From Skeletonema tropicum (taxonomy: Eukaryota; Bacillariophyta; Thalassiosirophyceae; Thalassiosirales; Thalassiosiraceae), in the NCBI GenBank assembly GCA_037178625.1, contig CM074137.1, positions 1,736,001 to 1,800,000 on the forward strand: a DNA stretch of 64,000 nt, in the 5' to 3' direction. The notes below the pieces were generated by a model. That model saw nothing but the letters and a program-made list of their open reading frames with translations, ran no database searches and had not been told where the DNA came from. Below, one piece after another: positions 1,124-49,045 of the stretch (its first letter is position 1; the number at the start of each line of letters is the position of its first letter). Made by a program: the position numbers and the translations under genes.

Positions 1124-1293
1124 AAAAAAAAATTCTGATGTGTGACAGTCCGAATTCTGATGCGCGAAAGTTCAGATTTCGATACTGGATTTTCTTATTC
1201 TTTGACATCGGAATAATATCAGAATTTGAAGTTGACAAGAATTCTGATGAGCAAGATACAAAAACCCATAAAGGCATTATCCCACTTCAGAGG
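1124..1293 (+). repeat. Extra, diverged Plavaka-type terminus between target and giant element
   Basis: After an A-run (1124-1132) this 170-bp piece resembles the Plavaka right end. It holds several copies of ATTCTGATG and ends with the same last ~95 bp as 21907-22001, including CCCACTTCAGAGG. Its inner part differs from that end, so it comes from a related subfamily or a decayed copy. It has no partner terminus and lies between the broken accessory gene and the giant element's left inverted repeat. Confidence 0.75.
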
Positions 1294-1297
1294 AGCG

Positions 1298-1312
1298 CGG
1301 GCCCTCGGGGCC
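1298..1312 (+). repeat. Left terminal inverted repeat of the giant element
   Basis: CGGGCCCTCGGGGCC, a perfect inverted match to 21049-21063. The motif is itself partly self-complementary (GGCCC..GGGGCC), so it could form a small hairpin. Confidence 0.75.
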
Positions 1313-1763
1313 TGTAAAGTATTGTGTCGTCATCTTGCTCTGTTGGCCATTTGCCGTGTGGCTTGTCAGTAGTCTTTATACAACGGAATTCGGCTATAAA
1401 GTTGCTCTGCAATGACGTTGGCCTTAATTGGTATAATTGTGCTGTGCACAATTTTACCAATTAGTCTCTTTACAATAGAATACGGCTATAAAGTTGCTCT
1501 GCAATGACGTTGTCTTTAATTGTGTTAGAATTGTGAAAATCATCTATCTGTCCATCGGCACTAGTATTTGTGTAGGGATTTGAGAGAAGATTGCAGTGCG
1601 CCTGATCAAATTATATATAATTGTGCTGTGCACACTTATACCAATTAGTACATTGTCCGGCAGTCATTCGTCGTCTCAACTGTTTGTTTTCGGATCAGCT
1701 GTTTAGTTGCGCTTAGTGTTCACTGTTGTGCATCTCTTTCACTTTCAACTCATCCACTCGATT
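1313..1763. repeat. Left subterminal region: 55-bp direct repeat and two palindromes
   Basis: No gene is seen. Bases 1370-1428 and 1464-1518 are direct repeats sharing CGGCTATAAAGTTGCTCTGC followed by AATGACGTTG. Two copies of the element's palindrome lie at 1426-1462 and 1611-1647 (arm ATAATTGTGC, centre CTGTGCAC, complementary arm). They sit on the 3' side of the minus-strand gene that ends at 1764. Confidence 0.7.
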
Positions 1764-2165
1764 CTATCGTTTCAGTGCGAGTTTTTTATTCCCTCTTTTC
1801 CATGTTGGTGCCGGCATGTTATAGTTCACCTCTGTATATAGTATTGAGCCTGGTACCATAGTGTTCGTCCTGTCTGTCTCAGTTTGTCCCATCATTGCAG
1901 CATAATTGGTTCTATGTCTCCCCATATCTTTTATGTAGTCTGTTATGATGGATTCAATTGTGTCCTTCTCTTGTTCTGTTTGTGCACCTCCCAAGATTCT
2001 ATCTACTGCTAGTTTCGCTCTCTCTATGCTTCCCTCGCTCAGTTGCAGCAGTCTTGTTGCTATTCCAATTCCTCTGTCATTGTTTTGCAGCTTTAGTTGT
2101 TGCCGTAAACTTTCGACATCGTTTTTAAACGCGCTGTTTGATAGCTTAGTTGATCGTTCCATCAT
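1764..2165 (-). CDS. Small hypothetical protein of the giant element (133 aa)
   Basis: Intact minus-strand frame from ATG at 2165 (a second ATG follows directly) to the stop at 1764. The protein is hydrophilic and mostly helix-like, with LRQQLKLQNN and RAKLAVDRILGG stretches that could form coiled coil, and a basic C-terminal tail (TWKRGNKKLALKR). No signal peptide or membrane segment is visible. I do not recognise a family. It lies next to the element's left end, transcribed toward that end, with two palindromes downstream. Confidence 0.5.
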   Translation of the reverse strand: MMERSTKLSNSAFKNDVESLRQQLKLQNNDRGIGIATRLLQLSEGSIERAKLAVDRILGGAQTEQEKDTIESIITDYIKDMGRHRTNYAAMMGQTETDRTNTMVPGSILYTEVNYNMPAPTWKRGNKKLALKR

Positions 2166-2409
2166 ATTCAGTGAGAGTATCGTAGTGAAATAACTTGCCC
2201 CAATTTGGTTCTCATCAGTGGTTTCTCAAGCGATTGTGTTTGTGGCTATTTTCTCGTAATTACATATTTCTTGTGTTCGTCGCCGAACTGATACACATGA
2301 CCACAGATTCTTTTCTATTACACATAACTAAATACTCCATAACATAGACAGCTTTCAGCTGTCTCTCTCTAGACATCTCTCTTTGTTTTGTCGATGCTTC
2401 ATCATTTCA

Positions 2410-3279
2410 ATGGTGTATATTAGATCGAGGGACGTTCGTTCATCTCGTATCGTTGTGAATCGCCCTATACCAAGGACTAAGGTCTTGTCCTTGTTTGACA
2501 ATTACAGTGCATCATTTTGTGAGTTGCATGCTTGTAGTAGTAGCTCTTGCATATCGGTTGATGTGTTGGACGAAACCATCGTCTCACAGTTGTTTGGTTC
2601 CGATCAACGCTCTCTTGCATCGTTTCGGCTTGTAGGCGGCGTTTTGCTTCGATCGTCTTTGGCTGCTAAGCTGTTGAGCAAATGTGATGTTCTGTTCGAC
2701 TTATCAATATGGTATTTTTGGGATTTGGTTGTGATGCAATCAGGGTGGTCGTTATTGGACGTCACAGAGCTCAACGCTTGTCTCGGCTGCGCCGATGTTC
2801 TTTATTTGGGGTTAGTTCGTTTTCTTCCATCCCAGCTGTGCAACCAACGATGTGTTTCAAGCCATTCCCCATGCACATCTTCTTTGTGCACTATTCGCTG
2901 CGAGAGACTGTTCTCTGTCGATGTAGCTTATGGATTGTGCTCCGACATCAGCTTGTTGCTTTCACGGAAAGCTCTTGTCATGAAATCCGTCGCTGGGCCA
3001 GACAATTTCTCTATTAGAGAACTGGGTCAACTCCAGTACCAATTAGATCTCCTGAATCGTATGATTGAATGCAGACGTCCCATTTCAGAGACTTTTATGT
3101 TTTGCATGGATATCAACGCCCTTTTGGTGTCCAAGCGTGGTTTGTTGGACCGCGATTTTGACGTGTTCAATTTGTCTCATATGTCAGAGCTTCTTGCTGA
3201 CGAAGTCTTCAACAGCGTTCTTCTCAAGGTTTATTGTTTGAATTTCGAGCAGTTATCCGCTGATATTGTCGTGGACTAG
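2410..3279 (+). CDS. Hypothetical protein of the giant element (289 aa)
   Basis: The open frame begins at ATG 2410 (MVYIRSRDVRSS) and ends at 3279. There is no competing long frame on the other strand, which supports real coding. The sequence is rich in Leu, Ser and Cys, with possible helical repeats (SRKALVMKSV, LQYQLDLLNRMIECRR, SHMSELLADEVFN). No family is recognised and no catalytic motif is visible. It converges with the minus-strand gene ending at 3496; a palindrome copy at 3302-3336 lies between the two stops. Its 5' neighbour (1764-2165) is transcribed divergently from a gap of about 245 bp. Confidence 0.45.
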   Translation: MVYIRSRDVRSSRIVVNRPIPRTKVLSLFDNYSASFCELHACSSSSCISVDVLDETIVSQLFGSDQRSLASFRLVGGVLLRSSLAAKLLSKCDVLFDLSIWYFWDLVVMQSGWSLLDVTELNACLGCADVLYLGLVRFLPSQLCNQRCVSSHSPCTSSLCTIRCERLFSVDVAYGLCSDISLLLSRKALVMKSVAGPDNFSIRELGQLQYQLDLLNRMIECRRPISETFMFCMDINALLVSKRGLLDRDFDVFNLSHMSELLADEVFNSVLLKVYCLNFEQLSADIVVD

Positions 3280-3301
3280 TCTGATGTATCGTGTATCAAT
3301 T

Positions 3302-3336
3302 TCTATAATTGTGCATTGCACAGTTTTACTAATTGG
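3302..3336. repeat. Palindrome copy between convergent genes
   Basis: TATAATTGTGCATTGCACAG then TTTTACTAATTG: arms ATAATTGTGCA and TGCACAGTTTTA pair with few mismatches. It sits between two convergent stop codons, where transcripts from both sides would carry the hairpin in the 3' region. Confidence 0.7.
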
Positions 3337-3495
3337 GCGAAGTTCTTATGTTATGGTTCTTAGTTTTGTTACTTTTTATGGCTGACCAATTGTCTCGTGT
3401 TTCATCAACCCTTTCCGTCGTTATAGCCTGTTGTTGGTCGTCGGTCAAGCTTTCGTTGTCTCGCCTTGTTATGCTCCCCATTCCCCTGTTGTTAG

Positions 3496-6400
3496 CTATT
3501 CTTCTGTCTCATTTGGTACCATCCACCTGTAATTTGCGTTGTTTGTTGTTCTCTTAGCGCCGTCGACTGATGGTTCTCCGTAGATGTAAATTGTGTTGTA
3601 AGGATCGACGACAGTGTCACCTTTCTTGCCGCTCACGTTGAACACTCTCTTATATTCCTCTCCGTTTTTTCTGTGCAAAAAGACGATTGACTTGTTCATT
3701 TCCTTCACGATCTGCGTAATAGCTGTCTTCAAAGGTAAGCCAAACAAGTTCTTTGCCCACTTCTCAGCCATCTGTTGCTCCTTCGTAGTCAACCCAATAC
3801 GTTTGTTCGTTTTGTGCTTTTTCTTCCTTCCTCTCCATTTCATGTTACTCCACGCGAGGTTGATGACGTCAAAGAATCCAGTTTGGTCGTACTGTTTTCC
3901 TACCTCATATCCTTCTACTGCTTCGAATGTTGTTTCGGTTCTTGCCACGACATCGTCACTTTCAATCATCTCATCTATATCAGCTTCTGCTTCTGGAAGT
4001 GTAGGGAACAATTCATCAATGATTGCTTTTGCAATGTTTGTCATTAATCCTTCTCCCAAGATATCTTTACCAACTTTATTCTGTGCTGCTTTCACGGCTC
4101 TAGCTCTCAATTCATCCTTGCTCTCTCGTCCGTGGAGTTCGTGCTGCGTCGTATTGCCTGACTGTTGCGACACGATCGTTTTACTGGCACAATCATTGGT
4201 GCGTTGCTTTTTCGAATTTGTCTCCTCTGTATCAGTTGTTGATCCATTTTTGTCTTTACTTTGATGCTTCTCCGACTTCCTCTTCTTACTCTCCTTTCTT
4301 TTGCTTGGCTTTCCCTCCTTGGTAGCAGCAGGTTTCGTTGGAAGTGTGTACGTACGGATGAGCTTGCCCTTAAGTTGCGCAGTCCCTCTGATCAAGTCGC
4401 CCAGCTGCGTTAGCGATAACAACGATCCTGTCATTTGAAAGTCACTCGGTGATTCGATTCTAGATGTGACCGTTTCATTCCCAATCTTTAGAACCTTCAT
4501 CAACTGACTTGATGTTTTCACTGAGTCGCTTGTCGTTTTGAATCGCTTGTCTTTTCCGAAGAAGAGGTCTTGGAGCTTTCTCGGATTGCCTCTCTCTTTC
4601 TCTGCGGATCGAACCACATTCCAACAAAAGATGTGGCAAATGAGCTCTACTAGTGTCATATCACCAGGAGCTGTTACGATGGTCATCACATCTCTACCCT
4701 TAGTCGGTATCTTGCTTTGTCTTTTGGTTGAACTTGCACCTGTCTCATTCGTCACTCTGACCGCCTCAATGACGTTACTTGCCAATTGCTCTTTATCGAG
4801 ACGTGAAGTCTTGTCCTTGTCTTTCTTTCTTACCAAGAATTCTCTGATAGCTTCACCGACCAAATCCTGGTTGTCTTCTCTCAATAGGTCTTCACTAACT
4901 TGGATGTCTTCAGGGGTAGAAGCAATGAGTTGCATGTACTCGTGTAATAGATTCATTGTCACCATGAAGTTTAGTGCCGCGATATTCACATCTCTCTCTG
5001 TGCCTTCATCTTCCTTCAGCGTCTTCAGGACAACTGCGATCTCTTTTGCTGCCATACTAATCAATCCGAAACTTTTCGCTTGATTTCAATGAATAGATAC
5101 TTGTTAGTCAAGGTACAACGAGCACAAGTTTACGAATGAAATGATACCAAGCTTGTTCTTACCAATACTCAATCTCAAATCATTCGCCATATCTTTGGTT
5201 TGCGACATGATGCTGAAGGCATTTAAAGTTTGATCAAGCAAGGCATCTGCGTTGAACAGTTTGGCAGACTCGACTGTGTAGACCAACGCTGCAGTACTTG
5301 TCGCCATGATCCCTTCAACTGACCTGTCCCATAGTTTAGGCGTGTCATTGTATTTTCCATCAGTATCATCCTTGGGTATCACAATCGTGTTCACTCCTGA
5401 TCTTGGCATAATAATTCCGCCTGCCAACATTGCGCTTATCTGCTTTGAGGTAAATAGCTGCATTCCATCAGTTTCAAGCAATGACTGTACCGCTACCGCG
5501 AGTGGGAAAAATCTGGCCATGCTGTGCTCAACAGTCATCGGGTAGTTCCCTGTAGAACCGAAGTTGTCCATATTACACTTGACAGGCAATTTGAGTACAT
5601 CATTTGGTCCTCCACCATCAACTCTGAGCTGCACTTCGTTTTGGCACGTCTCGTATTCACGCATTGGATTCTCGTAGTATTGAGTGAGCGGCTCTTCGGT
5701 GAAACTTGGGTCATCTTCAAACTCTTCAAGTGTCCTTGCCGTTCGCGCTCTCAGCCCCTTTATGGTCAAAACTTTACCTTTGCTGACTATCTTACCGTTA
5801 GTACCAACTTCCTTCTCAGTCCAATCCTCATGGTCTCTTCTCACAGAATTATGCTTAGTTAAGCCTCTGTATATATTTAGTACTGTTGATCCAAGCTTCC
5901 TTTTGCTCACGTTCTTGCTTTTCTCGGCTAGAAGAGTTTCCGCGAGGTGAGGCGCGGGGAAAGATTCGGTAGCAGTCCTTGATGCTACTGTAATGTGAGC
6001 GTCGAAGGGGTGGCTCAATATTGCATCACTGTCCGATTTTTTCAATTTCTCAAGAGCATTCTCCATGGCGTCATGTTCGTTATCTTCAATTCCTACGAAT
6101 GAATTGGTCAAGAACGTCGGATCTCCGGGATTGCTTGGCTTGAAGAAGTAGCCTGACTCTCTCTTCACTTTGCATCGCAGCAGAGCTGCCAATAATGCTA
6201 TCAAGCGGTGGTTGCCTTCAACAGCTGTGACATAGAATTTCAATGAAGCAGTGAAGGAAGTGTAGAAATGACCAAATCCCTCGATACCATCTTGGACTGC
6301 CACATTGACTTCATTTTGACTTTCATCTAGCCAATGGTGCTTTCTTGCAGTGCTCAAAAGCTTTCGTTGACCTTCGACTGTTGTCACATTAGCAGTTAAT

Positions 6401-7439
6401 GCCTCTGATATTTCTCTTTTCGTTTCATCTGTGCCACTACCATCATCTCCGTTGAGTACGTCGATTAAGTGTGATAGCTCTGGAACATACGTGAATGGCA
6501 ATCCGTAAGCCACACTAGTCCTCGCTTCTTCACTGGATGCAATCAATGACATATGAGTTGCATTGACTGGTTCTGTCTTCTCCTGTTATTAATGTGGAGT
6601 AGCATCAATCAAGTGTTAGTTGTGAGTTCAGCAACGGATCTATAAATCAATATTCGTATAATCGCACAGTGAGCAATTATACAAATCAAGTAGCATGATG
6701 TAGTTTGGCTGCAGCAATCGATCGACGAATCAATATTACCAAAATTGTACAGTGATCAAATTTACAAATTCGTTCTGTGCAACATCGCAATCGATCAACG
6801 AATCAACATTCCCAAATTTGTACAGTGATCAATTTTACAAAATGGTTCGTTGCGCAGATTCAACAAAAGTAAACTCACGCAATCTTCCGCGGAATCATCC
6901 TCCGCTGCTTTCTTGCTGAAGTGTAAGTGTATCTGACTGTCGTTCATTTCTTTGTTGTCGCCGGATTTACCCGTAGCCACCAGTTTCAATAGCCCGAGTA
7001 TCTTCTCTTGCTGTGGTACCGCTTGATTTACATTCTCCGCTACCAATTTGCCTTCTTTATCCAAATGGGTGAAGCAAACGAAAACCGTAGCACTAATTTT
7101 TGTTGGCAGGCCCGTATTTGTGCCTTTGATGTAATGCTCAGGTCGATCTTCCTCGACTTGCTGCGTAGTCGTTTCTGTACCTGCTGTTGGTTTGTCAGGG
7201 GTGATAACGTTGTTGGTGGTTGGTCTGGTGACAGCCTCGGCAGTATGATCGGTAGGTGTGTTATTCTTTCCGGGGGTGTTCATCTGGTTGTCCGGCGGAC
7301 TCGTTGTCTCCTTTAACGTGCTTTTTGCGTCCACAGCTTCAGCTGCAGATTCAACCGCAGATTCAGTTGCATCTGTAGCTTCAGGTGAGTTCATGGTGTC
7401 GTCGTTATCGTGTTCAGTTGGATGTTGTTTGTCGGTCAT
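3496..7439 (-). CDS. Large spliced hypothetical protein of the giant element (three exons, about 1,187 aa)
   Basis: Three long open stretches join in frame through plausible introns: exon 1 7439-6879, exon 2 6582-5163, exon 3 5078-3496. The donors are GTGAGT and GTAAGA, the acceptors AACAG and ATCAAG, and the phases agree (0, then 1). The N-terminus is Thr/Glu/Pro-rich and probably disordered. Exon 2 holds VEGNHRLIALLAAL (6201-6240), reminiscent of the G-x-x-R core of ParB/sulfiredoxin-fold proteins, but only that motif supports the idea. Exon 3 has a Lys-rich patch (KRKESKKRKSEKHQSK) that looks like a nuclear localisation signal, and a C-terminal region with KWRGRKKKHKTNKR. No catalytic site is certain. 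Read separately, the three exons would look like three unrelated genes. The 296-nt first intron carries three palindrome copies. It is transcribed divergently from the MBD-like gene across 866 bp. Splicing is inferred, not shown. Confidence 0.65.
6640..6845. repeat. Tandem array of about 72-bp units, each with a palindrome, inside an intron
   Basis: Two clear units (about 6713-6784 and 6785-6850) each contain AATCGATC-ACGAATCAA followed by the palindrome (6738-6770 and 6811-6841). A weaker third copy sits at 6640-6690 with its palindrome at 6656-6682. All lie within the first intron of the large minus-strand gene. Confidence 0.7.
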
Positions 7440-8305
7440 GATTTGGTGGAGCGCTGTTGCGTTTTATGCGAGATCTGTGCGGCGGATTCGTTGGGTGCGG
7501 TGCTTTGCTCTGAATTACTTCCGGAACTTAAACTTGAAGTGTTGGGATTTTCCCCCCTCCTATCCCCGCTGAAATGCCCATTTTGATTGTCATTTAGATG
7601 CTATATCTTATGATTTAGATCTAAAAATCGCTTGATTTGTGCTAGAAAGGACTTTTCCAGGCTAATTAAGTCAGATTGTCGATGAGCTTCTTCGTTCTTT
7701 CCGGTGTGCATCCCCGTCACCATCTATTTTCTTCATTTTTTCTCTGAGTGACGTGGTAAACTTCGTTACTTAAGGAATTAGTACACTTGATTCCAATCGT
7801 CTTACGTCACAAAGTACCAGAAGTCAGGTGTTGGCAAAATCCAATGAACAAAAAAGTATTTAAGTTCATGCAGCAAGTACTCAGGTCGACATTGGCTCAA
7901 TTACATTATCTGCCGAGTCGTCTATTGATGCAAGTCTAAATAGACGCCGACGTTGGTTGCCGACGTGTTTGCATTTGAATAACTGCCGATCTTTGGCCAC
8001 GTACTGATCAATACGTCAGTTCTTAACTCCACGTCGACGTCTTGTGTTGAGCTGAATCTTTTTGTCGACGTGTTGTCGATGTGTTGAACCACAAGATCTT
8101 GTGTTGCCGACGTAGCTTACGAAGGAACTCGTTTACTTCATGACGTGGTTGGTTATTGATTGCATTGTTCTCTGCTGATTATTGCGCTGGTGCGTTGGCG
8201 GCGGTTATGTAGGCAGTTTGTACGTTGTCGAGCCGTTCAACAGCTCTCATAAATTATGCATTGCATCATTTACATCATCACATTTCTACATTGTCCGAAT
8301 AAATA
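7440..8305. promoter_or_regulatory. Divergent promoter region rich in TGACGT/GACGT motifs
   Basis: This 866-bp gap separates the start codons of two divergent large genes. TGACGT or its complement ACGTCA occurs at 7749-7754, 7804-7809, 8013-8018 and 8141-8146. The related GACGT core recurs at about 7952-7966, in ACGTCGACGT at 8031-8040, and near 8066 and 8108. TGACGT is the core of bZIP/CRE sites, and diatom CO2/cAMP-responsive promoters use such sites. Whether these sites drive the element's genes is inference. Confidence 0.5.
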
Positions 8306-11300
8306 ATGAAGTTTGGCAACACAAATCCAGTTATATCCACCGTTGGTAGTAATGGTAAGGGCTTCCGTGCCGTGCGGAATCGGAGCAATGTCGATGCACG
8401 TCTTACTTCGTCAGGGGTCAAGACTGCCGCTAAACCGTCGGCTCCTGTCATTGCATTGAGCGTAACAGACATCAATTGGCGTTTGGTGCGTACCGACGAT
8501 CGTATCTTCTCGCTGCTAGCGTCTGTTGCATTAGGCGATGGGTTTGACGTTGCCAAGTTGGAGAAGGAACAACTGCTCTTTTCTGCTCTTTCCGTCTTTG
8601 AAGTCGGGTCAATCAAGTACATCCTGAATGAACTGTCTGAACATTACCCGAATGTCCCAGTTGGTAAGACTGATTCTACTGACAAAGATGATCTGGTGTC
8701 TGCAGCGGTCAACTTCTTAATGTTTGCCGCTATTGCTCAGAAAGGAGGTACAAGCCAAGCGCCGTACACTTCAAATTGTGAGCATTTTTGGTAAGAGAGA
8801 AGGTTAACCTTCGTGTGGTTCAATGATTTTGGTATTTTTGTTCATTGTACCGTTTTACAAATTCTGTCTTTCCTTTTTACTTACAAGTTTTTTTTTCAAC
8901 CTTCAACTTCACACCAGTGATGAGAACGGGAAACTTGTACTTGAAGACAAAACTCATTCGGGCTCCCGTGATCAACCTGTTCAAGATGATGATGAACCGG
9001 ATTTGTCCGAGAAAGGTGCTGTCACGAAAAAGTCTAAACCGGTACCTGTCCGAGAGAAGGCCTCTCCTGATTCAACTATCATGTGAGTTTATTTTGTGTG
9101 CATGTGCACTGCCGCACTAAGTATCGCTTGCTTATTGAATCATTTTAGTATAATCGATCACTGAACAATTTTACCTAATAAATAAATGCAACTGCCTTCT
9201 ACATAGCGAGAATGAGTGGGTTGATTACACCCATTCAGATCTCTCGGATGGATGGAAAAGGAAGAGTATCAAGCGTAAGGGCGGCAAATCCCGCGGAACT
9301 ATTTACCACCATTACCTCTCCCCTGACAACAAAGTTTTCAAGAGTTTGACGCGAGCGAAGGCACATTCCTCTCCATCGAACGTCACTGAGACTGCTCCTC
9401 CCTCGTCTAAGTCGAATGGCAATCCTAATGACTTCGTTGATACTGTTGATTTGATTGCAAGAGGTGATATTGCTGATAGTGTACAACGACTCAGGAAACT
9501 CGTTGTAAATGAGTATCAAGAAACTTTTTCTGTTACGGACGATGTTGACAATTTGGCAATGTCGAAATTAGCAAAGAAGATGCGATTGAAACAAATCATT
9601 ACAGCTGGTGCGGATCATGTTCAGAGGCCGACCGGTGACAAGTTGGTACCGAGGAACACTTTTAGTATCCTCCACGCACTCGCTTGTGTAGTTGATAACG
9701 TGGCTCTCAACACAGAGGAGAAACTGCTGCCGTTCGTCGCTGATGTCATGTATATGGCTGCGAATGAACCCTTCTATCCTCGTATCAAAAGAGTGATGGA
9801 CGAATTCATTTATGAATGCGAATACTCATACAACAAAGTACATCGCTCGATTGACTGGTATTTCACATTGCTCGATGTATTGAGCACAATCATGTGTCTT
9901 GAAATTTGTGTGCTGCTGCCACCTGATGGATGCCATGGAGAAAGCGGTGAAACGAGGATTGTTTCCTTCGCTCCAGGCGGGCTAAAGTGCCCAAGAAAAG
10001 TCTATTTCAGGCTACTCATTGACCGCACTATTACTGATTGTCGCCTCGGTGATGGTGGTGACAATGTTGCTGGTGTGTCCGTTTATATCGAGAGGGATTT
10101 GGATTTGACCACTTCCGATGATGATGGTCTAGATGGTCATGACGATGATGATCAATTCGATGATATCAGTGGTACTGACGAGCAATCAAAGCAAAATAAT
10201 TCATCGGACCGCAGCAGTGATGAAATTGATGTTGTGAGGGATGATGGCTTTGTATCATCAGTATTCCAGCTGTTGAAGGAGACAAATAATTGGAATGAGT
10301 TGGAAGTGTCTGACCCAGGTGATAAGTTCGGCCTACCTTCATCAATTGCAAGAAGTTTACTTGCCTTTTTTCAAGAGACGAACCATCCGATGCAATGTTT
10401 TACTTACGAGTTATTCTTGAAATGGTGTGCTAGTCAGTTGGATGACTTTTGTAATAACGAGGTCTACGCTGAAGGCAGCAAAAAAGTTGTCGCAGAGTGG
10501 TTGAAAGAAGAGACTCATTTTAAGAGATCGCTCGCTCATTCAATTGATTGGTACAAATCTCTGTTGAGCGCAATCTGTGTGCGTTGCCAAGTTAGAGTGG
10601 CGATTGCAATACCCCCTCACAAAGACTGGTCTGCGAAAAGTTTTACAGTCATTAATTTACCTGATTGGGGGGCAAACAACATGACGGGTGTGGCGATTGA
10701 TGACAGAAATCTTGTGTTTCGTCTACTTTATCAAGATCATGATTCAGGTAACGATTGCATTGTTGGGGTCTCTGCGTTTCGTGTAAGCAAAGTTCAACCT
10801 GTGCAGAATCCGTATAAGAAACTGAGTGGTAGTCTTACCGCTGAGCAGAAGCGGGGTTCTATCCAGTTGACCAAAGCTACAAGCGAAGTAATTGAAGAAG
10901 TCAGTGATGCTAGTACTGCTAGGTCTCTTTTTACCACTCCTGTGAGGAAGAAGGTGGTTGGGAAGCCCACATCCTTGCTCGACCATGGTTCTCAACCGTG
11001 TAAACGCAGCATTGAAGACAGGTTAGCTCAAGAAAAAGCTGCTCTGTTGAAAAGGATCAAATTGTTGGAAAAGGGGAAGAGCAATGTTGTATCGTCTCCT
11101 GCAACTTCTTCGTCGATGGTTACTGCTGAAGAAGTGAAAGGTGAGTTCAAGTCGGGCGGTTCTACAAGCTTGACTGGTATGGAGGTTTGGGGAGCGAGAG
11201 TACTATAGGTGATCATAGTCACAATGGCGGTGGCGGTGGCGGTGGAGCATGGCAAAACGTGGATATTTCTTCTGTCACGACTGGTACATCTTCTCCTCTG

Positions 11301-12050
11301 AAATCATCGTTGAGTCCGATTACTGTTGAAGTGTCTTGTCCTATCACACACAACAAGTCCAGTAAACAAGTCTATATTATCTTCTTTACGGAGATGGGGC
11401 GTAGGGCCTGGTACCTGAAGGGTGAGCATGTCAGATCGATTCTACTGACTTACTGGAACAATGTATCCAGTGCTGGAGACACGGTGCCTAACTGGTACGA
11501 ATGTTTCACGGAAACCTTCATTAAGGAACAAAACTACTCCACCGACAACATTCTCAAGAGAAAACAAACTACATCGAATTATCCAGTGACAAAGTTGATT
11601 ACAGTGCTTATGGTACCTACTGGCAGCTTTCCGATCGAGACCCACTTGCGAAAGATCGAGAACAGAATGAAGCAATTGATGAGCGATGCAGAAAAACCAG
11701 CGTACATTGCTTTGAAGGTCATGGAAGAGAATAACAACACGATGTACAATCGATTCCTTGAGGGCAAGTTCAGGAACCGCCCCAAAAAGAACGTTCCATA
11801 CAAAGACAGGAATGAGCTTTTGCAAGACATTATTTCGGACTTTCAACATACTTGGAAATCTGGGTTTGATTCAGTCACTTACGGAGTACCTTTGAACAAG
11901 TACCTGACCGACTTCGGAATCAAAGCGCACCTTCAATCTATTGGTTACTCGTCGTTTGACGATGTCACTGAAAATGAGAGGAGAAATGTCTTCAAGAGTG
12001 GAAATTTTCCTGATTGGAACGAAATTATTGAGGATACTATCATGGAATGA
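8306..12050 (+). CDS. Spliced gene with an MBD-like motif and an internal duplication (about 1,149 aa)
   Basis: Exons 8306-8790, 8918-9082, 9207-11140 and 11185-12050 join in one frame. The donors are GTAAGA, GTGAGT and GTGAGT, with CAG, TAG and GAG acceptors. The last intron would be only 44 nt, so a one-base frameshift near 11180 is an alternative. Across the exon 2/3 junction (about residues 217-270) lies DGWKRKSIKRKGG, then YHHYLSPDNKVFKSL. That spacing resembles a methyl-CpG-binding domain (GW, basic strand, Y-Y-SP-x-x-K-x-F-x-S). Two similar segments follow, HRSIDWYFTLL (about 9841) and AHSIDWYKSLL (about 10533), each leading into a hydrophobic strand and PP. Their layout weakly recalls OTU-fold proteases, but I see no catalytic Cys/His. 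An acidic stretch and a run of Gly (11222-11247) are probably linkers. Palindromes sit in the introns. Confidence 0.6.
8827..8862. repeat. Decayed palindrome copy in an intron
   Basis: TTTTGGTATTTTTGTTCATT followed by GTACCGTTTTACAAAT keeps the outer arms of the element's palindrome with several mismatches. It is in the first intron of the MBD-like gene. Confidence 0.4.
9146..9179. repeat. Palindrome copy in an intron
   Basis: TAGTATAATCGATCACTGAA then CAATTTTACCTAAT, in the second intron (9083-9206) of the MBD-like gene. Confidence 0.65.
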
Positions 12051-12208
12051 TTAGCCACTGAGTTTGGGGAGTAGAATGGGGTGGGGAGGATTGGTGGGAT
12101 TCTATACATGAATTGGGATATATCTGCATTTCTTTTTAACAATAAGAAATTTCGTCGTCGTTTACTAATCAGCGCCTTTTTCTTTTAATTGCGTTCTTGT
12201 ACTTGCAG
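12051..12208. other. Gap between the MBD-like gene and the Ulp1-Helitron gene
   Basis: No open frame is convincing here. It ends in a good 3' splice site (pyrimidine-rich tract then TTGCAG at 12203-12208), so it is probably intron. That means the next gene has an upstream exon that I could not place, or that the two genes are parts of one transcript. Confidence 0.5.
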
Positions 12209-12333
12209 TTGTCACTCCGGTGAAGGAGTCACATGTAGGTGAATCGACGACAACGCCAAGTGAGTGTTGCCATCACGTTGTCGTACGCTTTGATTCGTAT
12301 TTGCTTTGGTTTGGTATCACTTACTGACTGACA

Positions 12334-12369
12334 TTTGTAAATCTGTCCACTGCACAATTTTACCAAATT
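12334..12369. repeat. Palindrome copy in the first intron of the Ulp1-Helitron gene
   Basis: TTTGTAAATCTGTCCACTGC then ACAATTTTACCAAATT. The arms pair over most of their length. Confidence 0.65.
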
Positions 12370-14019
12370 ACCAAGCGACTGTAATATCTTTGCCGCACAT
12401 CATACTTTTCGTGACGAGCTGGTTACGGACTGTCCTTGGAGTTAAGCAACTACGTAATAAAGGAATACTGATTAAGGTAATTAAAGAGCAAAGCAAATCC
12501 GTCGCTCTCAAATTACAGGAAGGTCACCGCGAGTCGGTGATACAATTCAATGCAAGAAAGGGAGGACCGTCTGAGCTGCTAACTACAATCATTGTAGTTG
12601 TGGCGTTATCCAGCATTGTTACGCTTCAGCAGCACGATGTCAAGAGTCCCAATGCGCGCACAGTCTGTGATGACTTGGTTCGTGCAGGCATACGACAACA
12701 GCAGAATGTGATCTCGGCTGAACCACCATCTGCATCATCGGTGACCCAGAAAAGCTTTACACCATTGCCAGTGGCAGTCGACATATTATCACAATGTTTC
12801 GTGATACCTTTCAAGACGAGCAATAGCAGCCTCTTGCTTGCAGACAAATGTTCGACTGACCTATCCCACAGGCTGGCAAAACTCATCGGGCAAGATGATG
12901 CATCAAACTACGCCGCATTTTTCGAGAACTCTCTCAGGGACAGTATGAAAAGGAATTTGATTGTTCACGGAATGGATCTGGCGACGCTTAAACCTGGACA
13001 GTGGTTAAATGACGCGGTACTGCAATTCTGGTTCAAGTGGATATCAACACCCAGATGCCCTGGCGACAACGCTTCTTCTGTGCACATCTGTTCAACGTAT
13101 CTCCTGTCAGGGGCCCTGAGCGAGGGGTACAGTGACACGATGAAGAAGTTCCTGAAGAATGTCAACATTTTCGAGAAGAAAATCGTCATGTTTCCTGTGC
13201 ACCTTGCCAGTCATTGGTCGTTAGTAGCGGTACTGAATCCAAACCTGATAAAACAGACCAAAGCAAGATTTGGGGATACGACCTACAGCAAAGATGTCAC
13301 AGCTATGATACACTTGGATTCACTTGGGAGCGGTACTCTCCACAACAGGAGGGAAATAGCGCAAGCTGTTCGAAACGTTCTCAACGCAGAGTGGAGAAGG
13401 CATCATGATGATGCGCTAGATAGATTCGAGATGCCTTTCTCTCATAGACACAAGTCGTTCCAATTGCATTTTCCCGAAGGTGAGCGAAGTCTATCAGTCA
13501 ATCAATTTCAGTTACTGTGTCGTTTCACTATCTCAATCTCACGCTCTTTTGTGTTATACCAGTTATGGACCAGGGGAACGGCTACGACTGTGGCGTACAC
13601 GTATGTCGCTACGCTTACAATCTAGTTCAGATGGTTGACTTGAAGGTCAAGAATAAAGATTTCACTGACAATTTCGCCAGCTGTATAAGCAGTCATGACT
13701 TGTTTGATTACAACGCAGACGACATCAATAGATTGAGGACCGAAATGTATGACCTCATAGTACACATCACCAGCCTGTATCGAAATCACCGAGATACATT
13801 GATTGACTGCTTGAGCGAAAGTGATGATGAGGATGATGACGATGATGTGGAGATTATATCTCCCGTGACACAGACAAGCGATGACTCAGTTGGCGATAAA
13901 TCCGATCATGTGTCCAACAGCGATTCGTCTTACTCTCAATTGGACGATGATGACGACGACCTGTCCGCTGATACCACAGGTGAGTTTATTTTGAACTATG
14001 TTGTACATGGTACACAACT

Positions 14020-14054
14020 ATTGGTAAAATTGTGCACTGCTCCATTTTACTAAT
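14020..14054. repeat. Palindrome copy in the intron joining Ulp1 to Rep-helicase
   Basis: TTGGTAAAATTGTGCACTGC then TCCATTTTACTAA, in intron 13980-14071. Confidence 0.65.
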
Positions 14055-17000
14055 GACATCATTTTGTGCAGGCGACCTCGATCAGATACATTACAGAACC
14101 GACAAGACATACAATTACATCGACCTGGATTGCAATCTCGCCCGCGATGACGGGGATGCCGACTCAAGCGACTTGAATGTATTCGTACAGCTGGGAGATA
14201 TCATAGAATACCGCAGTTCAAAGAAGGATGCACCCATGAAGGGTCAGATTGTGTCGATTGGGGCTCTCTCCTCTGACAGAATTCTCCAAGTATCGAATGG
14301 GACATGGCTCAGTAGGAAGGTCCACCAGGTAAAGCGCATCGAGATCGTTCGACCTATGGAAGACAAGAGGCTGGTCAATCCTTCGCCTAAGTGGAAGGGT
14401 CTCGACAAGGTGGTAGTCATTCCACCATTCGAGACGGTTGATGAGGACGACGAGGTAGACGGAGTGGTAGAGAATGATATCAATAGTGGAGGGACCGCTA
14501 CCACTGCTGACACCACCAGTCCAGCCGAGAGCAATGCTAGTGGAGAACCAACTGCAGGTACAAACCAAAAGGAAGAAGAACAAGAAGAAGAACAGATCCC
14601 CATGTTCACTTCTAGGTCGGAGAAAAATAAAAGAGAGAGGACGTCGTGTGGGTCAACAAATACCAGTCATTGGGGTGAAACAGTGAAGGTGAGGACAGAA
14701 GAGAAGTACTTGGATAAGAGGCGTGCGACACACACTTACATCCGATGGGCCAAGGACGGCGTTGAGTATGACAGAGCTAAATCAGCGGTGAACAAGATGT
14801 ATGTACATACGCTAAATTACGGCATCGTTGACAAATTCTACGAAAAGGAGCCATTTGCAGCTTCCACGAAGGATGAGTTCAACAAGTCAATTAAGTCTTT
14901 GAAGGACGCTGTGAACAACCGGATTAAGACGAATGGAGTCACAATCGCCATCAAATTTGACATCACCTTCATGGACAATCCCTGTTACGGCGAACACGGC
15001 CGTTCCAAAGAAACGAATCGATCGAGGCAGACTATCGAGGAGATGTTGAAATTCGAATATAAAATGAAGACGCTGCAGCTGCAAACTTGCAGTGTCTGCC
15101 GCGAGAACAGGCTCGAATTTTCGGAGAAAGTCAAGGAGAGTGCCACACGATGCGAGGAGGTCATCTGCTCCACTTGCAGAACGAAGAAACATAAAGAATC
15201 GGACTATTTCTTGAAGAACAACTTCCACCCAGTCTGGTACGAGCGGGACAGCGAAGGAGTTATGAAGATTGACGAAAATGGCAATCCCGTGGTAAGATAC
15301 GACATACCCAGTGAGCTGAAAGATCTGACTATGTCAGAGAAGCTCCTGATTCGGAGGTGTTCGCCCATGATTCCGTCGATGCACATCAAGGATGGTATCT
15401 ATGGCATTAACGGTCATTGCGTGTGCTTTCCTCAGGATATAAATAACATGTGCATGGAATTGCCACAGACTGAGACGAGTATGGTAACATTTGTGCGGCA
15501 TATCAGCAACCGCGTGACGGGGGAATCTATCAGCCGTCATTACAAAGTGAACAAGAGGAAAGTAATAGCGGCTCTCAAGTGGCTCAAACTTAATCACAGT
15601 GGATATCATGGAATCACAATTAAGGAAACCAATCTAGATTGGATCAAGAATGGATCATTGTATGACGTCGCGAAGAAATACACTCTGAACACAAAGCCCA
15701 GCAGACGAGATGCCGTGGCTGACGCCGCAGAAACACTGTCTGGCAATCAGACAGGTACACCAGAGGACAAGAACAACGAAGACGAGTTTGAAATGGAGAC
15801 AGTACACCCGAACTACAACAATACCTTACCGAACTCGAAACAGGCCAAAATCGTGAAGGAATTTAAAGTTATAGCCAATGCAACGAATCAGAAGGAAAAG
15901 GTCCTCAACTTCCCTCCCATCGACCACAATGCGCCAATAAAGTGAGTGTATTCTTTGCCATTGAATGATTCGATTGTGTTCAAATTACCACTCGATTTAG
16001 CTAAACCAGCATCTTTATCTTGTACTTGCAACATTATGCCAACGACAATCCATGTCAACCAATCGAAACCATCAACAGTGAGTTTGATTCGACGGGACAA
16101 GTGTTCGTGAATGCATTCCCTTGGCTCTTCCCTGGCGGTATTGGAGACGTGTACGATCTCAGACGTGGGAAAGTCAAAGATATCCGTAGCTGGGCCACTC
16201 ACTTGATACGGTACCAAGATGGAAGATTCATTAACGATCAGATGTTTTGCCTGTACGTCTTCAACATGCTGCAGCGTCATACGAACAATACCCAGGGCAA
16301 TTTCTTTTACAAAGACAAGAACTTCCTTGGTGCGAGTGTGAGAATGCCACCAACTGTGGAGGAGTTGCAGCAGCAGTTGAGGCAGGGTGATATGAGCTAT
16401 ATTAACAAGTTGCGATACATCGCTAGGGGTATACGTGGATCAGACAGTTTCTGGAGGGGGAAGCAGGACGAGCTAGAATCGTGGATTGACTTCCATATTT
16501 CACGTGGACACGGTCCGCCTACCCATTTCATCACGTTATCTTGTGCCGAAAACTGGTGGCCGGATCTACGTCGTCTGATGATCAGCCTTGAGCGAACTGC
16601 ACAAAATCTCAAACAGGTCGAATTGCTGCAGAAAAACGACTTCAAGGCCATGACCAAATCAGTCAAGAGATTCACAGTGTATGTCAATGATTTTTTCATG
16701 AAGAGGTCGAAAGTCTTTCTCGACACAGTTGCGAAGGACGCGCTTGGTATCGAGCATTACTGGGCAAGAGTCGAATTTGCGCCAGGAAGGGGTCAGATAC
16801 ATCTGCACTTGTTGGGCATTTCCAAGGACAAGGCATATCTGAATGACTTCTATCGAGCAGACACGGAAGAGGAAAAGGCCAAAGTGCTGGAAACATACGC
16901 GACAAATGTGCTCGACATGACAGCCGACGTCGAAGTGAATGAGAACCACGTGTCGGACAGATCTCCCGACTCAACAAATCCGCTAATGCATCGGTTCTGC

Positions 17001-17499
17001 GAAAGCGTGCATAAGGGAGAGGACGCCCGAATGCTGTGCCAGGAGTGCATGGTGCACCACTGCAATGTGTATTGCCTTGGTACAAATACGAAATGCGAAC
17101 GTCGTGAGTGTAGGTTTGGGTAGTACGGTACGGAGACAGAGTACGGCAAGTGTGATACAGATGGGAAACCACTCAGCAAAGTATCGGTGATAGTAACAGA
17201 TCAAAAGGGAGTGGAACACTTCCAACTACGCCGTACAAAGTCGCGAAAGTCATGTCAGCACAGTAGGACACTGTTGCAAACCTGGAGGGCAAACATAGAT
17301 ATCCAGCTACTGGTTTATAGGTCACATCCAGACAAACCCGATGTCAGCGAGATTGAGAACGTTTGCAAATATGTCGTAGCATACGCCAGCAAGAAGAACC
17401 ACACGTCCAAGAAGGAGAAAGAAGCAGTGCAGAACATTGTGCAAAGGTAAGTGTGCTCTGAAGATGAAAGTTGTCTCTCACACTGAATTCAGTGCAGTT

Positions 17500-17645
17500 G
17501 TGTATTCCGCCATCTTCTTTGGTAAAACTGTGCGGTGCACAATTTTGCAAATTGAAACAAAATCTTACGCTGGGTAACCTCACTGTATTCCGCCATCGAC
17601 TTTGGTAAAACTGTGCAGTGCACAATTTTGCAAATTGAAACAATC
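17500..17645. repeat. Two tandem palindrome units in an intron
   Basis: Intron 17447-17705 carries two direct copies, 83 bp apart, of a unit with CTGTATTCCGCCATC-like lead and the near-perfect palindrome TTTGGTAAAACTGTGC.. at 17518-17553 and 17601-17636. These are the cleanest copies in the element: arm TTTGGTAAAACTGTGCA against TGCACAATTTTGCAAA. Confidence 0.75.
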
Positions 17646-20540
17646 GAACACTGTTAACCCCACTGCTAACACAACCTACCGCCACTATTAATTCTCACCT
17701 CCCAGCAAAAGCTCCGAGGATATAAGTGGTGTCCAAACATTGGTGAAAATGTCACTGAACTGGATGACAAGCAAAAGGCTCATCAGCATACAAGAGGCGG
17801 TGCACGAGATTGATAGGCTGAGTTTAACACTCTGTTCAGATGTGATCACTTACGTGTCGGTTCAGAATTGTCTGAAGCTACGAAAATCATCCGACCCTAA
17901 GCCAAACGACTTGGTCTATAGCTATGCAAGCAGGGAGGAAAAGTACAGCAAACTGACCTTGGATCAGTACTTTTACAAGGAGTGGTGTAGGAAAAAGTTC
18001 ATGATAGACCCTGACAGCAATAGACGCATGAACAGGATACTCATCGCCAAAGGACTCAATTGCAGACCACGTTACCCGGTGGACTACGATTATGCAAGAG
18101 GAATGTTGTTACTTCACAAGCCATGGAGCTTCGACAAACCACTTAATTTACGCGACAGACAGAGAACAATCAATACATTCAAGTTGATGCTGCAGAAAAG
18201 ACAGGTCCCTACAAGTGTTTGGACCGAATACCAGAGAGCTGTTAGATACGCGCAAGAAAAAAGGATCGAATGTGTGGCAAGAAAAGGGACAATTCAAGCA
18301 GATGTCAACATTGACGAGCTCGACGATGACGAGGTAGATCAACACCTGAATCATTTGCACTCGACCCAACTCTCTGATAGGAAAGTGGATGAGTTACTTT
18401 TGGGGGGCAAGAAAATCGACGTAGGATTGAATCACGATTGGTCGAAGAGCTCGTTTGATGGAGAAAGAGACGTAACAATACCAGGGGAGGAGTACACAGT
18501 CAAACTCAGAGAGCAACGTGCCAGAGCCATGATGGACGATCATTCAGGCGCAACAATACCCACGAAATCTGACGGATCAAGTTACAACATCGAGGAACTG
18601 TCCGAGGAACAGGCGATGATCGTACTCGCCACTGTCGATACTGTGGTGAAATTCCTTGATAATGACGAGGATTACAAGCCGCTACGAGCAACAATTACAG
18701 GAATGGGTGGGTGCGGGAAATCGCTGGTAATTAACACCATCATTTCCATCATCAGGAAGCTGACCGATTCGAACAAGACAGTCCAGGTTGCTGCTCCTTC
18801 AGGCAGCGCAGCGTACAACGTCAAAGGGTGCACGCTGCACTCACTTCTGGGAATTAACGTACAGGTACCTTACAAATCATTGGACGCAAAAAGAAGAGAA
18901 GAAATGTGCAATAAACTGAAAGAGCTGCTCGTACTGATGGTCGATGAAAGAAGCATGTTGGGCTCACACGTAACATTCGGTGCAGAGGAGCATGTGAGAG
19001 ATTGCGCATTTAATGGGCACAATAAACGGGAGAGGTGGGGCGGTGTCCCGGTTGTGTTGTTCTTCGGTGACGACTACCAGCTGCCACCGTCCAACAAGGG
19101 GGGAGCAATAAACGGCTACCACGAATACCACAACAACGATAGGCCAAAAACAATGACAGGAAAGAGTAAAAACAATCAAATATGCGATTACGAGGGTAGC
19201 AAAATCTTGACTGAGATGATGACGGATGTGGTCTTCATGTTGACGAAGAATTTTAGAGCAAAAGACAAGGAGGATAGCGATCTCATGAACAGGATGAGAG
19301 TGGGGAACCAGACTGATGAGGATGCAAAGCGCCTGATCAAACTACACATAGACGAACTCGGAAAATATCATCCAAAACTGAGGGAAGAGGTAGAAAATGA
19401 CCCAAAGACGTTGTGGGTATACGCGAAACGGGACGATATGTCCCAGAAAAATGTAGACATGCTGATCAAAACACACGAACGACTGAAAGTACCAATAGCT
19501 AGGCTCAGGTGTCAATTCAGCAGCAGGATGGCGGGCAATAACACAGCATACCAGTCGCACTTTTACGGCAGGAGGCTATTCTACACCTTTGATGTGTGCG
19601 TAGGTGCACATGTTTGCTTGGAGTCAGCCAACATCGATCCCAACTCAGGATTGTACGTCTCAGCTATTGGGGTAGTTGTCGAGATCGTTTACGATAAGGA
19701 TCGCTCCGTTGGACCAAACGGTAAAGGTGAGGTTAGCCTACCGAAGTACATTGTTGTGGATTTCCCTACATACAAACCACCACCAGGCGAGGACCCATGG
19801 GACAAGAACAACCCAACGGTGAGTAAAAGTTGACACACGAAAGACACAAGACAATTGCCACTCTCTGCGAAAACACTACTAACTCATTTCATACTGATAC
19901 AAATGCATCCTACCCCAACTTATTGCGCACAGCACGTGCCAATCCCACCCTACGAGCAGATTTGCAACAGAGGATGCTGCACCGCATTATTCATGCCATT
20001 GCAAATTGCCTACGCCATCACCATCCACCGCTGTCAAGGACTCGAAGCTGGATTCGACAAAGGAGACCGCTGGAACCGCATGATAATAGATCCAGCAGAT
20101 GAGTTGTGGGAGATTAGCAAGTTTCTTGGAACAATGTACGTGGCTACCAGCAGAGGCAAAACACTTGGCTCCAAAGATCAAGCATACCCGTCGGACAGTG
20201 CCATATACTGGACCGGAAGCAACATTTCAACGAACCGATTAAAAAATTGCAAGAGAAAGCAAAATGGCCAGTTCTGCGAATCGTACAAGAAGCGAGCAAA
20301 TTGGGTGAAATACTTGGAGGGGAAGGCAGAAGAGTCGAAGACAAGGTATAGCAAGAGAAAGTTGGAAGAAATCACAGAAACATCGTACGCAGCAGCAATC
20401 AAGGGCAATTTCATCAAAGACAGGACAGACCTGACAACCAGGATTACCAACATCATAACCAACCCGAACAAGAAGTGGAAAGAAGCGAAGAAGGATCATG
20501 AAATCCCAAGTGATTACTTCGCAGGATCTTCATCTGGTGA

Positions 20541-20700
20541 TTAGTAAAATTGATCACTGCACAGTTTTACAAAACAGACACTTTCTCAACACAAAGAATA
20601 CAACAACTCAATTAAGCGTCTGCATCTGGTGATCAGTAAAACATCTGCAAGCGCACGATTCGATATATCAAGCACAGTTTTACAAAAAGACATTTTCTCG
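20541..20700. repeat. Two palindrome copies directly after the Rep-helicase stop codon
   Basis: The first (20541-20574) begins in the stop codon itself: TTAGTAAAATTGATCACTGC then ACAGTTTTAC. A second unit (about 20625-20695) repeats CATCTGGTGAT-AGTAAAA, with a longer centre, and ends with the same ACAGTTTTACAAAA arm. These are in the 3' flank of the last gene. Confidence 0.65.
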
Positions 20701-21048
20701 TGACGAAGAAAGACAAAAACTAAATCGACTAACGCCCGTGTAAAACCTGTATTTCTTTCTCGTACAGACCGATTTAGATGCTCAAAAAGCGCATCTAGTA
20801 CAGTCAATTTCTCGCTTTCAACAGGTACTTCTTGCTTTCTACATAGGAACACATACAGATCCTACGCCGGTAGTCTCTACCGAGGACTCTACGTGTCCCT
20901 AAAGTAAACCTTCTCACTAAAAAACACATGTACTGATTCCTACCTATAACTCTGTAGAATAATGGGGGTGAAAAATAATGAATTTTCCCACCTGTAATAG
21001 AAGGGCACCTGCGGCCCCCTATTACGCTGCTCTGCACTCCATGAACGG
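20701..21048. other. Right subterminal region of the giant element
   Basis: No gene is seen. Near the end GGCCCCC (21012-21018) can pair with GGGGGCC (21046-21052) around a 27-nt loop, overlapping the terminal repeat. A hairpin close to the 3' end is a known Helitron trait. Confidence 0.5.
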
Positions 21049-21063
21049 GGGCCCCGAGGGCCG
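21049..21063 (-). repeat. Right terminal inverted repeat of the giant element
   Basis: GGCCCCGAGGGCCCG, exact complement of 1298-1312. The next base (21064) is already target sequence of the interrupted Plavaka-like gene, or the 4-bp ATCA repeat. Confidence 0.75.
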
Positions 21064-21551
21064 ATCATCCCAGATGGATCAAGGAAATCGAAACTGCAAG
21101 AGAGGAGGAACAGAAGAGAAATGACACTCTTGATGTTGCTGAGAAGGAGGAGGAGGAGCCTGCTGCTGTAGGACAAAAGAGGAAGAAGAAGAGATCATCT
21201 GCCGGGCCCAAGTTGAAGTATTCAAAGGGTGCTAATGTCAAGAACAAATACCTCCAGTCGGGTTGGACCAAGGAAGGGATTCGTCACTTTAAAGCCCTCC
21301 AAGAATCTTTTGACAAGCTTATGAAAGATGAGAAAGCATGGCAGGTTTGCAAAGAGACATGGGATGACTTCATCTCCAACATGAAGCAGTTCAGCGATAA
21401 TTGCTGGGTTCCTCAGTATTTCAAACTAGATTTGGGTGATGATGATGAAGATAGCATTGCTGCTACAGATGAAGACAAGTTCGAGTTCATAGTGGCAGAT
21501 GCTCTTGTGGGAATGGGTACACTTGAAGTGCCAGATATGAGCGGAGTATGA

Positions 21552-22001
21552 GCAGAGTTATCAGTGGTTGAATCATCATTGCATATTGAATTTAATGTAA
21601 TAAATCATGTTTGTGTTATTTGATTTGATTCACCACAATAAATACTTCGATGCTTGAATTACAAATCCTAAAATATGCTTATAAATTTGATCGGGATCAG
21701 AATCAAATTGTGACAAAATAAGTGTGTCAAAATTTAAATTCTGGAATCAGTCACAAAATTCTGATTTACAAAATTTTAATTCTGATGCATGATATGTTTA
21801 TTTTGATGTTTAGAATTTGTGTCTGATGTGCGACATATTTATTTTGACACTCGGCCTTTTCTTACCAATGCAAGAAATTAAAGATTTTGATACTAGAAAT
21901 TCTTATTCTTTGACATCGGAATAATATCAGAATTTGAAGTTGACAAGAATTCTGATGAGCAAGATACAAAAACCCATAAAGGCATTATCCCACTTCAGAG
22001 G
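21552..22001. repeat. Plavaka-like right terminal region with ATTCTGAT subterminal repeats
   Basis: AT-rich, non-coding, with several scattered ATCAGAATT/AATTCTGAT units. It ends in CCCACTTCAGAGG. The same sequence occurs at 35188-35637 and 46054-46503 in the other orientation. Confidence 0.8.
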
Positions 22002-49027: not shown

Positions 49028-49045
49028 GATTAACAGGTATCGTTT
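49028..49045 (+). promoter_or_regulatory. Likely tRNA primer-binding site of Copia
   Basis: GATTAACAGGTATCG follows the LTR directly. The GAGATTA.CAG core recurs right after the other LTR ends at 58095 and 59617, as expected for a shared primer site. The priming tRNA was not identified. Confidence 0.5.

Follow-up and report, generated by a model that had tools for sequence, protein, structure and literature searches.

The question raised by this locus, a 64,000-nucleotide window of the Skeletonema tropicum genome (C11:1736001-1800000, in an assembly of 78.4 Mb and 125 contigs; contigs and fetched loci are cited by C and L numbers), is what kind of mobile DNA carries a Rep/helicase protein (RepHel), an Ulp1-type protease and several other genes between inverted copies of a short GC-rich motif, and where this DNA begins and ends. 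The initial annotation described it as a giant Helitron-like element at 1298-21063 with perfect 15-bp terminal inverted repeats (TIRs). Our analysis suggests, with a probability of about 0.88, that it is a Helitron2-type rolling-circle transposon which encodes RepHel, an Ulp1-type protease and four to five inherited genes, and that the copy in the window is a defective daughter.

A large insertion with genes for Ulp1, DUF6570, Helitron_like_N and PIF1 helicase was indeed recovered by Pfam on reading frames, and an uninterrupted sister sequence without it was found at 35188-37244 on the reverse strand. Window positions 1-1123 match 37244-36122 at 99.7%, and 21064-22001 match 36125-35188 at 99.9%. 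The two matches overlap by four bases (ATCA), which is an ambiguity of the boundary. Therefore, the inserted segment is 1120-21063 and not 1298-21063; the claim of a base-exact site was correct for the right end, whereas on the left the sister gives 1119/1120, within the same ambiguity. The interrupted host sequence, which had been called a target gene, is itself a repeat. The structural features are as follows.

1120-21063, reverse strand: whole inserted element, 19,944 bp, defined by the sister repeat without it, by a right end common to 30 fetched loci and others, and by a 3' TGAT (ATCA on the forward strand) also present in a neighbouring relative
21064-21067, reverse strand: host target TGAT (ATCA on the forward strand), of the type TN[A/G]T followed by A
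21050-21062, reverse strand: 5' asymmetric inverted repeat, GGCCCTCGGGGCC, next to the terminal C on its inner side, self-folding as GGCCC-TCG-GGGCC
1300-1312, reverse strand: 3' asymmetric inverted repeat, the same 13 bp inverted, subterminal in normal copies
1294-1297, reverse strand: first bases of the 3' tail (CGCT on the reverse strand); the remaining tail and its hairpin are absent from this copy
1120-1293, reverse strand: abnormal 3' end, 174 bp from the end of another transposon (B), TGAT-terminated, absent from the normal tail and recognized by junction and B comparisons
35188-37244, reverse strand: sister repeat, which is the empty site, recognized by its sequence match to both flanks

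The GC-rich end motif is no accident. Genome-wide, CGGGCCCTCGGGGCC has 325 exact copies (174 + 151) as against none for the reversed pattern, and a 23-bp right-end pattern had 186 matches as against none reversed. In the window this motif is exact at 1298 and differs in two bases at the right end, and thus the common inverted repeat is not a perfect 15 bp but the 13 bp GGCCCTCGGGGCC. A 124-bp right-end probe yielded 209 candidates, 40 of which were scored; in all 30 loci fetched, which were the best-scoring and most alike copies (two of them, L018 and L020, have one common host flank), the element stops directly after window position 21064. The left repeat behaved differently from what had been proposed, as the conserved sequence of other copies extends 67 bp past 1298. 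These copies have 63 bases of their own to the left of window 1294, with TNAT at the end; L001, L003, L006 and L008 have ~65 bp in common outside the left motif before they diverge, and L043-L058 have a tail of the same kind. The ends of other copies thus coincide with the proposed boundary on the right and not on the left, and classical TIRs at both ends are excluded. Since the repeat is terminal only at 21063 and subterminal at 1300-1312, the true 5' end is on the right and the true 3' end on the left, the window copy having its abnormal 3' end at 1120. On the reverse strand the element starts with (T)CGGCCCTCGGGGCC and ends with GGCCCCGAGGGCCCGCG...GCGCCCCTGTTTAT, and the transposed strand is the one opposite to that of RepHel.

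The description of the element as giant and multigenic was borne out, its intact form being 19,833 bp (the long terminal repeat (LTR) insert of the C3 copy not counted) and a second family having the same genes. Copies of 24.5 and 25.4 kb were considered as the full element and rejected, because the C3 copy, which unlike the C6 copy was read through, owes its excess to a 5.5-kb LTR retrotransposon whose 443-bp LTRs are identical. Among 20 copies with paired ends, drawn from the first 100 of the 325 listed places, 13 measured 3.8-4.2 kb from repeat to repeat; thus, short non-autonomous copies are common.

The host sequence at the 5' end follows a preference. In 35 distinct 5' flanks, the first place of TNRT was T in 34, the third A or G in 34 and the fourth T in 35; the fourth place is inside the probe that found L009-L038 and is partly selected, whereas the first and third are free of selection. 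At the 3' end TNAT is the element's own sequence. It was found at 23 of 24 distinct ends of family 1 and was followed by A in 19 of these 23, and a second tail type had TCAT at 5/5 ends; these counts, which reflect largely constant element sequence, show the end and not independent events. Besides the empty site in the window, exact to the base save the ATCA ambiguity, L028 has the site of the C8:2897353 insertion in empty form (97% over 136 of the 200 bases joined), the site of the C7:193773 insertion is empty at about window 39066 (the 3' end of that insertion is ~24 nt longer and again TGAT-terminated), and site X on C11 had an empty counterpart at about window 39050. When the joined flanks of 20 copies were compared with the window and the loci fetched by then, two gave empty sites and 15 nothing; of the others, C3 was matched only by its 5' flank, one only by another copy's flank and one by short weak matches. 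No target duplication of constant length was seen at the four sites compared with empty ones. The target is TNRT followed by A rather than TT.

The window insertion lies ~2.9 kb from site X in the same host repeat, and three Helitron insertions were observed in one host repeat family within 3 kb (empty-site window coordinates ~36122, 39050 and 39066). In addition, L012 (C8:2897353-2897841) has two extra tandem copies of the 5'-end region, of 110-111 bp, adjoining the 5' end; they resemble the multiple 5' termini of FoHeli elements (PMC5148889).

In the sequence as typed, the 5' fold GGCCC-TCG-GGGCC is two bases away from the end. A like fold is formed by the 3' repeat, and a CGCGC...GCGCG stem follows directly after this repeat in three different tail types.

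By structure, with its asymmetric repeats, hairpins, target of TNRT followed by A and lack of target duplication, the assignment to Helitron2 is good. Helitron2 elements are described, in the excerpts by which the cited papers are represented here, as having asymmetric inverted repeats of 8-15 bp, the self-folding 5' copy 0-2 bp from the 5' end and the 3' copy subterminal, lying 20-30 bp from the 3' end with a hairpin right behind it; the end point was proposed to be set by pairing between the repeats (PMC3627910). Here, a 13-bp asymmetric repeat stands directly after the terminal C and forms the 5' hairpin, the 3' repeat is subterminal and adjoins a stem, and RepHel has a HUH motif, two tyrosines and a helicase and no endonuclease in the frames scanned. 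The reversed RepHel is also known from some Helitron2 elements, such as Helitron-2_CRe (PMC3627910). Differences from them are the target (TTTT followed by T/C in the described elements), the distance from the 3' repeat to the 3' end (~69 nt vs 20-30; PMC3627910) and the ~20-kb gene set, as opposed to a single RepHel frame (PMC4067079). The features of Helitron1, which are 5' TC, 3' CTRR, insertion between A and T and no inverted repeats, do not agree with the 3' TNAT and the inverted repeats present here. As to terminal structure, the earlier suggestion of a Helitron2/Helentron variant was correct, the ends being of Helitron2 type.

A similar terminal organization is that of FoHeli1/2 of Fusarium oxysporum, which have asymmetric repeats and insert between TNAT and A; this is the target preference seen here. 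FoHeli4/5 have RepHel in the opposite orientation, and both FoHeli1/2 and FoHeli3-5 show near-identical recent copies and multiple 5' termini. In contrast, FoHeli elements are 5-11 kb, have at most one separate extra predicted frame (FoHeli3) and end with ATTTT or CTCCTGT (PMC5148889, as excerpted). Proto-Helentron-Pi of Phytophthora infestans is also large (~14 kb), with proteins besides RepHel and no endonuclease, but it has TT / CTAG ends, an A-T target and a SET-domain gene, and Ulp1 is unmentioned in the excerpted text (PMC4067079). Helitrons reach 14 kb in fungi and 39 kb in maize, where they contain captured fragments (PMC6431247). A description of the present element was not found in full-text searches of the open-licence PubMed Central (PMC) literature, in which titles and starts of abstracts were compared. 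The new feature is the large size with an inherited gene set. The genes of the element are listed below.

13984-20544, forward strand: RepHel in pieces (13984-15945, DUF6570; 16005-17123, Helitron_like_N with HUH; 17692-19833, PIF1 helicase; 19834-20544, helicase end)
12294-14053, forward strand: Ulp1-type (C48) cysteine protease gene (frames 12294-13625 and 13484-14053), Pfam 6e-10, matching SENP/Ulp1 chains and with family-2 homologues
9154-12050, forward strand: gene A, 965 aa in intact copies, frameshifted in the window copy into frames of 684 and 301 aa
6795-7463, reverse strand: gene F, 222 aa, family-2 homologue with 24% identity (6e-7)
5104-6585, reverse strand: gene E, 493 aa, intact frame at 100% identity in 28 places
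3496-5085, reverse strand: gene D, 529 aa; the family-2 frame in the same place has no BLAST match and 18% identity in global alignment
2332-3279, forward strand: gene G, 315 aa, family-2 homologue (1e-27)

RepHel domains were called by Pfam on separate frames. The HUH motif (HLH) and the sequence CKYVVAY with two tyrosines are identical in both families; in the window copy, an in-frame stop at 17121 separates the HUH motif from the two putative catalytic tyrosines. Pfam detected neither an endonuclease nor an OTU domain in the frames scanned of both families. The Rep piece had no sequence match in PDB up to 0.1, and 57 pattern matches to it in viral_contigs yielded no confirmed relatives. Near its N terminus, the gene A product has a stretch with weak resemblance to methyl-CpG-binding domains (MBD-like; Pfam 0.014), and a two-family profile of gene A matched 18 PDB entries, all methyl-CpG-binding-like proteins (best 0.017), which is a hint only of MBD-like character. 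Genes D, E, F and G had no credible family in Pfam scans of frames from both families; a gene E profile found nothing credible in PDB, and the predicted structure of this protein (confidence score pLDDT 33) was of no use. Imperfect palindromes or half-palindromes of the form TTGGTAAAATTGTGC..GCACAATTTTACCAA were also observed at ~1430, 1622, 3310, 12352, 14021, 17521, 17604, 20559 and 20672, in introns and other noncoding parts of the element; elsewhere in the window, the patterns tried matched only at 25513 and 39761.

A genome-wide Rep query gave 59 matches, 16 of them at 100% identity: 12 with an open 480-aa frame, three (window, C88 and C11:1945180) with the 372-aa frame left by the stop, and one cut. 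Gene E had 81 matches, and gene A had 58, with a stop-free 965-aa frame in 8 places. Aligned over 14.4 kb, the window copy and the C3 copy show 4 mismatches and a single gap. Judging from these many near-identical copies, the element was apparently active recently.

A second family, at C5:2548301-2568300, carries these repeats at its two ends as well and agrees with family 1 in its genes, their order and their strands. Identity to family 1 was 58, 80, 70 and 65% for the RepHel pieces, 52% and 39% for Ulp1, 29-39% for A, 32% for E, 29% for G and 24% for F; the homology of gene D, which has only its place and 18% identity in its favour, appears doubtful. In a comparison by eye, 14 of the 16 places with a 35-38% homologue of gene E also had a RepHel of the second family, on the opposite strand and within ~20 kb. 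Between the families, Rep had identities of 0.84/0.88/0.52 at codon positions 1/2/3, and E had 0.40/0.55/0.33. As synonymous change is near or beyond saturation, no ratio of nonsynonymous to synonymous change is given; positions 1 and 2 are conserved and the third is near saturation, which indicates that selection has held the Rep and E frames. The same genes in the same order in so divergent a family indicate that they are inherited and are not recent captures. A mosaic was seen as well: L076 (C8:102698-110583) is a 7.9-kb element in which a family-1 RepHel part, truncated N-terminally, is joined to a different 3' half and tail.

The window copy itself has the RepHel stop, the gene A frameshift and no normal 3' tail. 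The junction pattern at 1120-1293 occurs at only two genomic places, the window and C11:1729849, which is 7.4 kb off and inverted, and at the latter the sequence continues as the mobile repeat B. With a 251-base B probe, 30 places were found; at nine of them, besides the C11:1729849 copy, the match reaches the probe end at 95-100%, and on the window copy it stops at base 176. Three loci (L070-L072) have 1,750 bp of B in common, with a sharp border and unrelated flanks. On C11, B occupies 1729860-1734130 (L059, L082; 4,271 bp). Its inverted ends read CC[T/C]CTGAAGTGGGAT, and it has a target duplication of 2-3 bp. The missing tail is directly behind it, ending with CTGTTTAT followed by ATC. In this neighbouring copy, B is inside the 3' tail, between the inverted repeat and the 3' hairpin and end; the window copy ends with TGAT 174 nt into B, ~4.1 kb short of the real end. 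Read-through past the normal 3' end was considered as the source of the extra 174 bp and rejected: because the missing tail is behind B, the event was a premature stop inside B. It was also observed that B shares ~120 bp of its end with a different repeat that hosts the window element. Helraiser, a bat Helitron1, likewise acquired new 3' ends and transduced sequence when its 3' hairpin was deleted or bypassed; unlike the present element, it is a canonical Helitron (PMC4778049).

The C11:1.73-Mb copy and the window copy have no substitutions in three stretches of ~1.7, 3.1 and 4.5 kb, and their gaps are mostly in single-base runs. The one-base difference that shifts the gene A frame is common to both, a further gap reopening the frame in the 1.73-Mb copy. 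In its present form this copy was rejected as the direct parent: it has neither the RepHel stop nor the 5' end seen in the window copy, and to derive the one from the other takes an exchange, or else an assembly switch, on C11. The two sides of one target site are found, to the base, at different copies: one is the 5' flank at C11:1.945 Mb and the other the 3' flank at 1.73 Mb. The RepHel frame of the 1.945-Mb copy has the stop. One exchange between inverted copies, or an assembly switch, would explain both the C11 flanks and the pattern of the RepHel stop; the element before the exchange would carry the markers of the window copy, which fits the markers compared. By inference, the window copy would be a defective daughter of a nearby element with B in its 3' tail and, because of its RepHel stop, it probably moved in trans. 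The regions C11:1.71-1.73 and 1.93-1.95 Mb look like either an assembly switch or the result of an exchange between two transposons that inverted ~200 kb.

Several alternatives need to be weighed against this reading. It is scarcely credible that the element is a DNA transposon with true TIRs at 1298 and 21063, either of cut-and-paste type or a new rolling-circle group: such a transposon would fit the inverted 13-bp match and, on first inspection, the sister repeat, but copies reach 67 bp past 1298, no constant-length target duplication was seen, and Pfam found RepHel and no DDE transposase in the element frames scanned. That the extra genes are captured host genes and the size incidental is very unlikely. 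Maize Helitrons do capture gene fragments and grow to 39 kb (PMC6431247), but here a second family has the same genes, order and strands (RepHel pieces 58-80%, Ulp1 52%, F 24%), and gene E frames are intact in 28 places. A Helentron, in which RepHel is fused to an endonuclease, is improbable too, although the palindromic repeats of HINEs, the partners of Helentrons, are also subterminal (at 2-4 nt on the 5' side and 38-60 bp on the 3' side), and 'YWARVEF' before the HUH motif resembles diagnostic residues of these elements (PMC4067079). The second diagnostic residue, however, is Q here vs S or L in that source, neither family has an endonuclease or OTU domain in its scanned frames, and the target is not TT. 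Somewhat more weight, while still unlikely, may be given to a later rearrangement of the left end (deletion plus insertion, gene conversion or misassembly) rather than transposition that created a new 3' end. Exchange and assembly switches readily affect identical 20-kb copies, and the C11 flanks are reshuffled; on the other side, the empty site is exact to the base save four bases, TGAT is an end like the normal TNAT ends, and the 174 bp are the start of B as placed in the tail of the neighbouring copy.

Some observations weigh against a Helitron2-type element with a defective daughter in the window. The assignment to Helitron2 is structural, and the ~69 nt from the 3' repeat to the 3' end exceed the 20-30 bp described (PMC3627910). 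The terminal folds are no better than shuffles (z -0.4, -1.1, +0.3 and -1.4; the 5' fold was of 85 nt), and the only support for the stems is their position, the same in three tail types. One of the 24 3' ends (L006) lacks TNAT, and the two flanks of the C3 copy are not contiguous in the repeat that holds its 5' flank. With regard to the daughter, B as one 4.3-kb transposon rests on the inverted ends and the split tail, with ~1,750 bp of it compared in other copies; the stop at 174 nt is a single event, before which five other TNAT sites were passed over; and the C11:1.73-Mb copy is now without the 5' end and the RepHel stop and has an open gene A.

For a Helitron2-type element, the enzymatic steps behind the observed ends, target, asymmetry, empty sites, gene order, copy number, near-identical copies and new 3' end can be proposed as follows. 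RepHel would nick the strand after the host TNRT (T-N-A/G-T), just before the 5' repeat, and displace it, rolling-circle copying starting at this repeat-bearing 5' end. Termination would be set by the 3' inverted repeat, together with the 3' hairpin, and completed at a nearby TNAT. The excised strand would then be joined into a new TNRT followed by A without target duplication, so that the host supplies the TNRT marking the new 5' end. For the window copy, copying would have ended 174 nt past the displaced repeat, at TGAT in B, and not ~4.1 kb on. This single event points to the inverted repeat, and less to the distal hairpin and tail, as what fixes the stop of copying.

Other features of the window and genome were noted in passing. 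Window 48783-52922 and 59854-64000 are direct copies, 98.8% identical over ~4.1 kb, and overlap in part with a retroelement that encodes an RVT_2 reverse transcriptase (1737-aa frame, 49266-54479). A 1224-aa frame at 39768-43442 on the reverse strand has a weak Ulp1/C48 match (6e-5) and is perhaps another mobile element. Intron-like breaks and retroelements were seen, and in the genome a chlorophyll-binding family, whose relatives include light-harvesting proteins with solved structures from algae and plants, had at least 128 matches, many in tandem; these features point to a photosynthetic eukaryote, probably an alga.

Helitrons, as described in the excerpted literature, usually have RepHel and little else conserved, and their extra DNA is normally captured fragments. 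At roughly even odds, the present elements may represent an algal lineage of large Helitron2 elements in which six to seven genes (RepHel, the Ulp1-type protease, the MBD-like protein and others) form an inherited and selected module, a virus-sized set, and in which the inverted repeat serves as the measuring point for termination. Two divergent families with the same genes in order imply that a rolling-circle transposon can sustain a multi-gene programme, and many near-identical copies suggest recent movement. A role of the Ulp1 protease, for example in countering SUMO-based silencing, is a guess, which is now a testable question. The window copy and its neighbour, in which the repeat and the hairpin are 4.3 kb apart and the new end is near the repeat, amount to a natural experiment on Helitron2 termination.

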